Positions 36,678 to 39,360 of a DNA stretch of 64,000 bases are shown one piece after another (the stretch's first letter is position 1; the number at the start of each line of letters is the position of its first letter). The notes under the pieces were generated by a model, which worked only from the letters and a program-made list of their open reading frames with translations, was not told where the DNA came from and searched no databases. The translations under genes were made by a program, and so were the position numbers. Source of the DNA: Pichia kudriavzevii (lineage: Eukaryota > Ascomycota > Pichiomycetes > Pichiales > Pichiaceae); the NCBI RefSeq assembly GCF_003054445.1, contig NC_042506.1, positions 131,501 through 195,500 on the forward strand, given 5' to 3'.

Positions 36678-37643
36678 TTATAAAGAAACCCTTGAAATAA
36701 TGATTTTGATGAAACTGAAACACTTTTTCCCCTTTAAGCCAAACCCTAAGACACCATCCATTTCTTCAAATGGTACTTTTATTACACACTGACTTTCATG
36801 GGCACTCTTAGTTGAATTAAGATATTCAATTGCACAGTTGATGCTGAAGGTGCAAAAGGAAAGCATCACTATAGTAGCGTGTCTTATTTCAAAGCAGATA
36901 TCTTCGGAAACTAGTTTGGCGCATACTAATCGTTCATTTACTCTTGTTTTGCCAATTCTGTCAAACTTGTACACGGAAAACTTACTATTTTTCTCTATGT
37001 TTGCCAAGGAAATCTCGAGTTTTCTACTATTACTATTCTTCAAATCTCCTACTATTTCGACACCTTCTACTTTCCATGCTATTGTTTTGAGAATTAAATC
37101 TATATACATCGGCTTAAGGAAAGATAGGTACTGGTGAAAATACTGTAACAATTTCTTTTGAGAATGGACCTGAACGCCATGGTGATAAATACTGCGATGT
37201 TGAATAAACAGAGAGTTAGCTTCCGAGATTGTGAACCGAAACATGAATATTAGGATTGCACAAACAAGTGTTCCTGTTCTCCCTTTGCCATGTTTACAAT
37301 GAACGAAAACTCCTTGGTTGGGTTTAGCAAGAAAATTGGAGACGACATTCACCAAAAGATTTAGTTCTTGGAAGGCAACACTGTGATAATCTACCCAATT
37401 GACATGTTTCACAAGGATATTGGAACTCCTAGCTATATAAGGCTTCCTCTCAGAAACCAAATCAACAATTAATGTTTTTGCAAACTTGGAGCTTAGAATA
37501 GCCTCGTAGTTTTCTGAAAGCAGGGATGACTTTCTTGTATAATCGACTGATGGGTATGAACCTATCAAAAGGTTGGGCTGTATATGGTATAAATCTAATC
37601 TTTTTTGGTCCCTAAAAGATTTTGCAGGTTTTACAACTTCCAT
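36678..37643 (-). CDS. TEP1: PTEN-like phosphoinositide phosphatase Tep1
   Basis: The 321-residue protein has the dual-specificity phosphatase loop HCKHGKGRTG at residues 115-124, with the catalytic Cys116 and Arg122. PTEN reads HCKAGKGRTG, and the two Lys residues that favour phosphoinositides are kept. The loop NWVDYHSV around residue 82-89 gives the probable general acid Asp85. LYHIQPNLLIGSYPSVDY near the start also fits PTEN proteins. The C-terminal 150 residues probably form a degenerate C2-like domain. In yeast, Tep1 acts on phosphatidylinositol 3-phosphates and is linked to spore wall formation. Length is shorter than S. cerevisiae Tep1 (434 residues), mainly at the C-terminus. Confidence 0.85.
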   Translation of the reverse strand: MEVVKPAKSFRDQKRLDLYHIQPNLLIGSYPSVDYTRKSSLLSENYEAILSSKFAKTLIVDLVSERKPYIARSSNILVKHVNWVDYHSVAFQELNLLVNVVSNFLAKPNQGVFVHCKHGKGRTGTLVCAILIFMFRFTISEANSLFIQHRSIYHHGVQVHSQKKLLQYFHQYLSFLKPMYIDLILKTIAWKVEGVEIVGDLKNSNSRKLEISLANIEKNSKFSVYKFDRIGKTRVNERLVCAKLVSEDICFEIRHATIVMLSFCTFSINCAIEYLNSTKSAHESQCVIKVPFEEMDGVLGFGLKGKKCFSFIKIIISRVSL

Positions 37644-38184: not shown

Positions 38185-38199
38185 TTTCCCAATTAGGAC
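38185..38199 (+). promoter_or_regulatory. Mcm1-type binding site
   Basis: TTTCCCAATTAGGAC agrees with the Mcm1 consensus (core CCCAATTAGG, a near palindrome). In S. cerevisiae Mcm1 with alpha1 drives alpha-specific genes. Here the Q-box partner site is not obvious. Confidence 0.6.
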
Positions 38200-38237: not shown

Positions 38238-38244
38238 TGAAACA
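38238..38244 (+). promoter_or_regulatory. Pheromone-response element 1
   Basis: A perfect TGAAACA, the Ste12 binding site, 463 bp before the start codon. Confidence 0.6.
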
Positions 38245-38467: not shown

Positions 38468-38474
38468 TGAAACA
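38468..38474 (+). promoter_or_regulatory. Pheromone-response element 2
   Basis: A perfect TGAAACA in the same orientation as the first, 233 bp before the start codon. Confidence 0.6.
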
Positions 38475-38527: not shown

Positions 38528-38534
38528 TGAAACA
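38528..38534 (+). promoter_or_regulatory. Pheromone-response element 3
   Basis: A third perfect TGAAACA, 173 bp before the start codon and 60 bp from the second. Confidence 0.6.
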
Positions 38535-38706
38535 ACCAACTTCTTCGAAAACTTTCCTTACTCAAATAGGCTCATCTAAATTTTCGGATAGTTATTTAAA
38601 CTACAACTATTCCTGATACAAATTAGTTTTGATTTCAATAACAACAGATGTTTTTATTTGTGCATCAAAAAACTAAGTCTTTATATTATACAAAAGAAAA
38701 AAAAAA

Positions 38707-39360
38707 ATGAAATTCACCACAGTTGGTTTATTATCCATTCTCATAGCATCTACAACTTTTGCTGCTCCAGTTTCTCAAGCTGACGCTACAGCTGATGCTG
38801 TTGCAGACGCCGAGGCGTGGAGATGGCACAAGTGGTTTAGAAACCAAGCAATTTACAAGAGAGAAGCAGATGCTTCTGCGGTTGCCGAAGCTGAGGCGGA
38901 TGCTAATGCAGAGGCTTGGAGATGGCACAAGTGGTTCAGAAACCAAGCAATTTACAAAAGAGATGCGGATGCGGATTCGGATGCAGATGCATGGAGATGG
39001 CACAAGTGGTTCAGAAATCAAGCTATCTACAGGAGAGAAGATGAACCAGAACAAGCAGAAGGCGACTTAGAAGAGGAAGAATATGATGGCAAAGAACCAA
39101 TCGGATTTGCTTACGCTTTTGCAGATGATGACAAAAACTCCGAACCCGTTGCTTTTTTTCCAATGTTTGCTTCCGATTTTGAAGAGCAACCAACTAATGG
39201 TACCAACGTTGCAAAGAGGGATGCCGATGCTGATGCGGAAGCATGGAGATGGCACAAGTGGTTTAGAAACCAAGCTATCTACAAGAGAGATGCGGAAGCA
39301 GATGCAAATCCAGATGCATGGAGATGGCACAAGTGGTTCAGAAATCAAGCGATCTATTAA
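38707..39360 (+). CDS. Alpha-type mating pheromone precursor, five copies
   Basis: The 217-residue precursor starts with a signal peptide (MKFTTVGLLSILIASTTFA). It holds five identical 13-mers, WRWHKWFRNQAIY, at residues 38-50, 71-83, 96-108, 180-192 and 205-217. Copies end in KR or RR (Kex2 sites) or, for the last, in the stop codon. Each copy is preceded by X-Ala or X-Pro dipeptides (DADAEA, ANAEA, NPDA), the substrate of Ste13 aminopeptidase. This is the design of the S. cerevisiae alpha-factor precursor. The mature peptide shares W1, W3, Q10 and Y13 with alpha-factor WHWLQLKPGQPMY but lacks the Pro-Gly turn. An acidic segment (residues 111-168), with the only N-glycosylation sequon NGT at 164, lies between copies 3 and 4 instead of before copy 1. 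The promoter has pheromone-response elements. S. cerevisiae names it MFA1/2-like (MF alpha); no symbol is given as orthology is not provable here. Confidence 0.92.
   Translation: MKFTTVGLLSILIASTTFAAPVSQADATADAVADAEAWRWHKWFRNQAIYKREADASAVAEAEADANAEAWRWHKWFRNQAIYKRDADADSDADAWRWHKWFRNQAIYRREDEPEQAEGDLEEEEYDGKEPIGFAYAFADDDKNSEPVAFFPMFASDFEEQPTNGTNVAKRDADADAEAWRWHKWFRNQAIYKRDAEADANPDAWRWHKWFRNQAIY
38818..39357 (+). repeat. Five 39-bp pheromone-coding repeats
   Basis: The 39-bp units lie at 38818-38856, 38917-38955, 38992-39030, 39244-39282 and 39319-39357. They differ only by synonymous changes, which points to recent homogenisation or strong selection on the peptide. Confidence 0.93.

Follow-up and report, generated by a model that had tools for sequence, protein, structure and literature searches.

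A possibly permuted alpha-factor precursor in Pichia kudriavzevii, with an internal pro-like element and no Kex2 site before its first pheromone copy

Introduction

A 64,000-nucleotide stretch of the Pichia kudriavzevii contig NC_042506.1 (here the window) contains an open reading frame (ORF) that is very likely MFalpha, the alpha-factor precursor gene of this yeast, with a product matured along the route proposed below. Its layout departs from the usual one, in that the pheromone copies stand right behind the predicted signal peptide and an acidic element related to the N-terminal pro-regions of other Pichia-type precursors lies between copies 3 and 4. We give about even weight to a reading in which the precursor is permuted, its pro-domain moved and not lost, its APV or API start serving both as a tripeptide for exit from the endoplasmic reticulum (ER) and as the first Ste13 dipeptide, and its copy 1 brought to maturity by signal peptidase and a dipeptidyl aminopeptidase, Kex2 cleavage on the N side being unnecessary.

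The pheromone itself is already published and so is not new. According to Douglass et al. 2018, MFalpha (PKUD0A00810) of the same species has five repeats of the same peptide, WRWHKWFRNQAIY, and one gene copy (PMC6053246); no other paper in the open-licence library searched contains the peptide. The initial annotation had read an alpha-type pheromone precursor from the sequence, which is supported, the exact peptide being in print as the alpha-factor of this yeast; an earlier description of the kind that would by its own terms refute it therefore exists. The excerpts consulted of the 2018 account mention no internal pro-element, no missing Kex2 site before copy 1 and nothing on residue 9. The permuted precursor, meaning the internal pro-element and a copy 1 lacking a Kex2 site in front, seems to be what goes beyond the literature found, along with the residue-9 pattern and the probably kept bend; the element and the copy 1 route did not turn up in searches of an open-licence library, supplements (S3 Table of PMC6097701 among them) excluded.

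Anatomy of the gene and precursor

The five 13-mers are identical as protein within the one ORF (Table 1), and a 20-base pattern taken from them occurs five times across the 10.79 Mb genome, every time inside the MFalpha gene. Their DNA varies at five columns, each a synonymous third position. Of the single-base changes open to copy 1, 117 in all, 15 are synonymous, and five synonymous-only differences would arise with a chance of about 0.128^5 = 3.5e-5 if the changes were independent, and the 13-mer is therefore under constraint. Chance repeats were rejected as an explanation of the five copies, given their protein identity and their synonymous-only differences.

Residues 1-19 are hydrophobic and lead to a TFA/AP site, as read by eye, and the −3,−1 rule is the basis for placing the signal-peptidase cut after residue 19. 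Dibasic sites follow copies 1-4 and precede copies 2-5, with none preceding copy 1, and spacers of the Ste13 type (X-Ala or X-Pro pairs) stand before all five copies with the exceptions of a VS pair ahead of copy 1 and a DS pair ahead of copy 3. The signal peptide and five identical 13-mers of the initial annotation were thus borne out, as was its remark that W1, W3, Q10 and Y13 are retained and Pro-Gly is absent. Its KR or RR before each spacer holds for copies 2-5 and fails for copy 1, its X-Ala/X-Pro spacers hold in general with VS and DS as departures, and it makes no mention of the acidic segment of 61 residues that separates copies 3 and 4.

Homologues (given here by their P numbers) include precursors named 'Mating factor alpha' from Pichia inconspicua (P0004, E 7e-55) and Saccharomyces paradoxus (P0015, E 1.5e-15). 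Weighing against the assignment, Pfam MF_alpha_N reaches 15.2 bits against a cut-off of 22 and over residues 1-30 only, and Pfam MF_alpha has no match in the precursor. All ten related precursors scanned likewise fall below the MF_alpha_N and MF_alpha cut-offs, and the shortfall shows where the models stop, which is not what defines such a precursor biologically.

Two further P. kudriavzevii precursors, P0001 and P0090, were taken as such from 100% and 98% identity. P0001, from another assembly, contains all 217 residues exactly behind a 19-residue N-terminal extension, but in the present sequence the ATG of that extension is not in frame. At 38697-38707 eleven consecutive A run into the MFalpha start codon, and the extension, probably a gene-call artefact, would require that run to be two shorter.

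Table 1. Features of the MFalpha gene and its upstream region (positions in the window)
Feature	Position	Strand	Basis or remark
TGAAACA, pheromone-response-element-like	38238..38244	+	pattern match
TGAAACA, second	38468..38474	+	pattern match
TGAAACA, third	38528..38534	+	pattern match
MFalpha, alpha-factor precursor ORF, 217 amino acids plus stop	38707..39360	+	sequence; PKUD0A00810 in PMC6053246
Predicted signal peptide, residues 1-19, cut TFA/AP	38707..38763	+	by eye, −3,−1 rule
APV, predicted new N-terminus, putative ER-exit tripeptide (ER-ESCAPE) for Erv29	38764..38772	+	AP also candidate first Ste13-type dipeptide
Nine dipeptides, predicted signal-peptidase site to copy 1	38764..38817	+	8 of 9 X-Ala/X-Pro; no dibasic site
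Pheromone copy 1, WRWHKWFRNQAIY	38818..38856	+	
KR, predicted Kex2 site after copy 1	38857..38862	+	
Pheromone copy 2	38917..38955	+	
KR after copy 2	38956..38961	+	
Pheromone copy 3	38992..39030	+	
RR after copy 3	39031..39036	+	
Internal acidic pro-element (putative), 61 residues (111-171)	39037..39219	+	net charge −15; KR at end
Part matched by N-terminal pro-region profile, residues 123-161	39073..39189	+	P0001 142-180
NGT, sole N-glycosylation sequon in precursor	39196..39204	+	P0001 183
Pheromone copy 4	39244..39282	+	
KR after copy 4	39283..39288	+	
Pheromone copy 5, stop immediately after	39319..39357	+	

The first copy and its dipeptide run

Absence of a dibasic site before the first copy was surveyed by rule across 60 precursors with a repeated core (two of 62 had no such core), and 10 of the 60 were picked out. 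Setting aside P0009, with KNR in front, and P0096, from a filamentous fungus and in which the rule caught the signal peptide, leaves eight: the P. kudriavzevii alleles P0001, P0002 and P0090, P. inconspicua P0004, and P0005, P0006, P0013 and P0016. What separates copy 1 from the predicted signal-peptidase site in these eight is of even length and made mostly of X-Ala/X-Pro pairs. In register with the predicted cut such pairs number 8 of 9 in the present precursor, 9/9 in P0004, 7/7 in P0005, 11/11 in P0006, 14/14 in P0013 and 8/8 in P0016, as against 1-3 in the alternative register, and the same place in seven precursors with an N-terminal pro-region holds 1, 1, 0, 0, 2, 1 and 4 of 9 (the 4 being S. 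paradoxus; counted from the end of the signal peptide as judged by eye). With the dipeptides in register, a dipeptidyl aminopeptidase could trim copy 1 from the signal-peptidase end, and copy 1 could so mature without Kex2 on its N side.

The run may have a second use at its very start, where the hydrophobic-Pro-hydrophobic tripeptide APV follows the predicted cut and has the ER-ESCAPE feature, Erv29 binding being putative. An APV start of P. kudriavzevii MFalpha and the Erv29 exit tripeptide are described in PMC6097701. AP stands directly after the predicted cut in P0004, P0005, P0006, P0013 and P0016 as well.

Several observations count against such a maturation of copy 1. The run is broken by VS in this precursor, it is weaker in other alleles (7/9 in P0002, with DT, and 6/9 in P0090, with DT and ET), and in P0003 a different sequence replaces copy 1, so that maturation of copy 1 may be inefficient. 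Together with the missing dibasic site these same flaws feed the strongest of the alternatives, namely that copy 1 is not a working unit but is secreted still extended at its N-terminus, leaving copies 2-5 as the ones that matter. Against this, five related precursors have an unbroken series of X-Ala/X-Pro pairs in register with the predicted signal-peptidase cut, and in P. kudriavzevii, P0004 and P0013 the protein sequence of copy 1 is the same as that of its sister copies. We lean somewhat away from a non-working copy 1, and treat it as a serious contender nonetheless.

Copy number is 5, 4 or 3 among P. kudriavzevii alleles (the 3 on a 1991-base contig), and the dipeptides at 38806-38817 are DAEA, DTEA or DTET. 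P0002 is the same precursor with four copies, one substitution and 25 residues missing (copy 3 with KR and its spacer, or an equivalent).

The displaced pro-element

A 2018 paper states that P. kudriavzevii MFalpha retains the APV start and is otherwise without a pro-domain (PMC6097701). The usual layout, in which a pro-region precedes all copies, is not found here, and the published MFalpha assignment stands on the remaining features; it is found in P. membranifaciens P0010 and in P0007, P0008, P0009 and P0012, each with an acidic N-terminal pro-region. The homologous element of the present precursor appears to lie between copies 3 and 4. A profile of internal elements from six sources (P. 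kudriavzevii, P. inconspicua P0004, P0003, P0005, P0006 and P0013) was compared with the N-terminal pieces of seven other Pichia-type precursors and matches five of them (E 1.9e-7 to 5.7e-10), with 0/300 shuffles reaching the score in each case. In reverse, and as a cleaner test, those five N-terminal pro-regions, all from P. membranifaciens-type precursors, were made into a profile that was run against whole precursors, and its best match falls inside the internal element in 7/7 precursors that have one (P. kudriavzevii represented twice; domain E 1.3e-10 to 0.0023, 0/200 shuffles each), with E 3.6e-10 and again 0/200 shuffles for residues 123-161 of the present precursor. All ten N-glycosylation sequons of the seven internal-element precursors fall within the element, and of the five N-terminal pro-regions three have a sequon (P0007, P0010, P0012) and two do not (P0008, P0009). 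The reciprocal matches argue that the pro-region has moved and was not lost.

This conclusion has its own difficulties. The N-terminal pieces of P0011 and P0021 are the two of seven with no match to the internal-element profile and, having failed there, they were excluded from the reverse search and the profile-profile comparison. Between the Pichia-type pro-element and the pro-regions of Saccharomycetaceae and other yeasts no clear homology was seen over 21 sequences (best E 0.19), and profile-profile comparison of Pichia-type with other pro-regions gave a probability of 0.62% over 8 irrelevant columns, a score that 3/100 column shuffles reach. The name pro-region for the element therefore comes from its Pichia-type relatives, and its role as one is what we infer. 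In the 21-sequence search P0019, at 1.6 bits, did beat its 300 shuffles. The acidic C-terminal piece of P0016, considered as a third place for the element, scores 6.9 bits with the internal profile (E 0.012, 0/300 shuffles), while with other profiles 40/300 (N-terminal), 5/2000 (joint) and 25/200 (reverse-search profile) shuffles reach its score. The alpha-factor precursors recovered include none named as Ogataea, Brettanomyces or Komagataella by which the ancestral layout might be judged.

The alternative is that the pro-region has simply been lost in P. kudriavzevii and the acidic segment is an ordinary spacer with a likeness by composition. This would agree with the loss stated in PMC6097701, with the lack of a Pfam MF_alpha_N match in the segment and with the lack of clear homology to Saccharomycetaceae-type pro-regions. 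But composition-preserving shuffles (0 of 200-300) do not attain the scores of the reciprocal matches, with E down to 1.3e-10, and the sequons fall inside the element, and so simple loss is improbable in our judgement.

Receptor and pathway genes

The genome has one STE2 (E 3.3e-65, 404 amino acids), one STE3, one Kex2-type P-domain protein, two DPP IV-type proteins (dipeptidyl aminopeptidases) and one SURF4/Erv29-family gene, and the STE2 and STE3 frames are open, without stops. The nearest solved chains to P. kudriavzevii Ste2 are named 'Pheromone alpha factor receptor' (E 5e-40), and these we take to be Saccharomyces cerevisiae Ste2. MATalpha1 was not found in the assembly by a search that gave no match in control genomes either; the assembled chromosome carries MATa (PMC6053246).

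Receptors were compared for 27 of 47 sequences, 15 of them (P0042-P0056) designated Pichia-like, with P0042 representing P. kudriavzevii (residue 20 is the single difference between it and the Ste2 encoded in the genome) and with the S. cerevisiae Ste2 residue numbers checked. For the 34 ligand-near positions, taken in part from PMC8942848 and PMC9220813, identity between P. kudriavzevii and S. cerevisiae Ste2 is 29%, as compared with 30% over residues 16-299. R58, Y106, N132 and N205 are kept in 15/15 Pichia-like receptors and C59I, S207P, Y266F and D275Q are fixed in 15/15, while positions such as 201 and 204 vary among them. In S. cerevisiae D275 touches His2 of alpha-factor (PMC8942848/PMC9220813); Gln stands at 275 in all 15 Pichia-like receptors and Arg2 in 16/17 Pichia-type peptides. 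From these alignments the Ste2 pocket is predicted to differ from that of S. cerevisiae and to be largely conserved among Pichia-like receptors, which fits co-divergence of receptor and peptide. The co-divergence proposed in the initial annotation is to that extent consistent with the single STE2 and its ligand-near identity, at the level of alignment.

One might also consider that the repeats released by Kex2 serve an autocrine or other non-mating purpose in a yeast lineage that seldom has sex. Such peptides exist (PMC6339444), and the type strain is reported not to mate or sporulate, beside an older report of sporulation (cited in PMC6053246). The published MFalpha assignment, the purifying constraint on the 13-mer and the presence of one STE2 and one STE3 in open frames speak against it, and we regard a non-mating role as very improbable.

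The peptide and residue 9

Only W-starting 13-residue peptides after a spacer were counted, giving 17 distinct Pichia-type 13-mers from 15 precursors and 23 13-mers from other yeasts (3/36 precursors, P0018, P0027 and P0037, yielded none). In the Pichia type W1 and Y13 are conserved in 17/17 and W3, W6 and I12 in 16/17. Asn is the L-residue best able to adopt the same backbone shape as Gly or a D-residue. At residue 9, 11 of the Pichia-type 13-mers have Asn, five have Gly and one has Tyr (16/17 Asn or Gly), and the others have Gly in 23/23. Peptides of the P. membranifaciens type retain Pro8 (VPNQAIY), and WQWRVWRNGQPMY of Wickerhamomyces anomalus bridges the Pichia type to Saccharomyces. For S. 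cerevisiae alpha-factor, position 9 needs to be Gly or a D-residue, D-Ala9 being active and L-Ala9 nearly inactive, which fits a type II turn (PMC7570734). Taken with the residue-9 pattern, this requirement argues that the bend is kept and not made differently, probably at the same turn position with Asn9 standing in for Gly9, and the suggestion in the initial annotation of a bend produced in another way is weakened. Counting against a kept bend are the Tyr9 of the one counted 13-mer, from P0021 (on a 944-base contig), and two uncounted peptides, LRWLKWFKYDHIY of P0021 and a TWRWFARARPSIY piece of P0011, which also have Tyr9 and no Asn or Gly there. The Asn9/Gly9 pattern offers a simple aid for aligning divergent alpha-factors.

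The resemblance to antimicrobial peptides raised by the initial annotation found no support: although a mainly Trp-rich cationic antimicrobial would suit the composition taken alone (three Trp, two Arg, one Lys, one His), conservation tracks the pheromone positions W1, W3, I12, Y13 and residue 9, position 5 takes eight residue types including Glu, the K/R minus D/E charge spans +1 to +3 across the 17 peptides and so is as low as +1 in relatives, and STE2, STE3 and processing genes are present, and we rejected this role as hardly credible.

Proposed maturation route

While the anatomy, the homology of internal and N-terminal elements, the dipeptide register, the residue-9 pattern and the pathway genes can be read in the DNA, every processing step, the activation of Ste2 and the turn are proposals. 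The signal peptide would be removed after residue 19, exposing APV for Erv29-mediated exit from the ER. The uncut chain, glycosylated at the lone NGT in the displaced pro-element, would then pass to the late Golgi, where Kex2 would cleave after the five KR/RR sites and Kex1 take off the basic residues. A Ste13-type dipeptidyl aminopeptidase would strip the X-Ala/X-Pro pairs as far as Trp1; for copy 1 no N-side Kex2 cut would be needed, as trimming would start at the signal-peptidase end. The released WRWHKWFRNQAIY would bend at residues 8-9, with Asn9 in place of Gly9, and would act on a-type cells through their one Ste2.

Among secretion signals for yeast, the pre-pro leader of alpha-factor is the one most widely used (PMC4176846). 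The leader in use has its pro-region ahead of the cargo, and the layout described here matters modestly in this respect. A natural pro-element in mid-precursor, with pheromone copies immediately following the signal peptide, lets one ask whether position (translocation) matters or whether the element acts as a portable sorting or glycosylation cassette.

Comparison with related precursors

Like the Saccharomyces MFalpha1 type, as in S. paradoxus P0015, the P. kudriavzevii precursor has a signal peptide and APV start, KR sites for Kex2, Ste13 dipeptides, and 13-mers with W1, W3, Q10 and Y13. In P0015, by contrast, the pro-region stands before all copies, KR precedes every copy and the peptide has Pro8-Gly9 where Arg8-Asn9 is found here, and the two pro-regions are without clear homology. 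P. membranifaciens P0010 and its relatives P0007 and P0012 share a homologous pro-element and have the related peptide WRWHKWVPNQAIY, but their element is N-terminal, KR precedes every copy, Pro8 is kept and a second peptide type occurs in mid-precursor. That second, unlike peptide (KYRHYYKNIGVF, KYRHYFKNIGVF or KYHQYFKNIGVF) lies between two ordinary 13-mers, and P0007, P0010 and P0012 may make two ligands from one gene. P. inconspicua P0004 likewise has an internal pro-element (there after copy 2), lacks a KR ahead of copy 1 and has a register of 9/9; it differs in its peptide WRWHRWVRGVAIY, its four copies and Gly9. W. anomalus P0014 resembles the Pichia type in its WxWxxW start and differs in that its main peptide ends NGQPMY as in Saccharomyces and its N-terminal pro-region carries MF_alpha_N (precomputed Pfam).

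Other peptides were noted among these precursors. P0014 and P0017 (W. anomalus and a relative) have three different 13-mers per precursor, WRWGGWKKGAPMY included; P0008 and P0009 share a conserved extra peptide with AWYLRNRYK at the C-terminus beyond the last KR; and in P0004 and P0005 a conserved non-pheromone piece with NWEWHVTF lies between KR sites.

Upstream region and neighbouring genes

TGAAACA resembles the pheromone-response element (Ste12 consensus), and three copies lie upstream of MFalpha with their starts within 290 bp (Table 1). In 700 bp, a length chosen after looking, 0.25 would be expected (Poisson P about 0.002), but 8% of simulations of such a window yield an equally close triple at some place within it. 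No TGAAACA cluster is present at the STE2 and STE3 loci retrieved, and the triple is mild support only. The pattern of an Mcm1-like box, CCCAATTAGG, at 38188 is not enriched (37 found against 35.9 expected).

Both neighbouring genes lie on the − strand. The gene at 36678-37643 encodes a dual-specificity phosphatase domain, and downstream the product of 39620-44941 matches the U3snoRNP10, BP28CT and HEATR1 models, as a UTP10-type protein.
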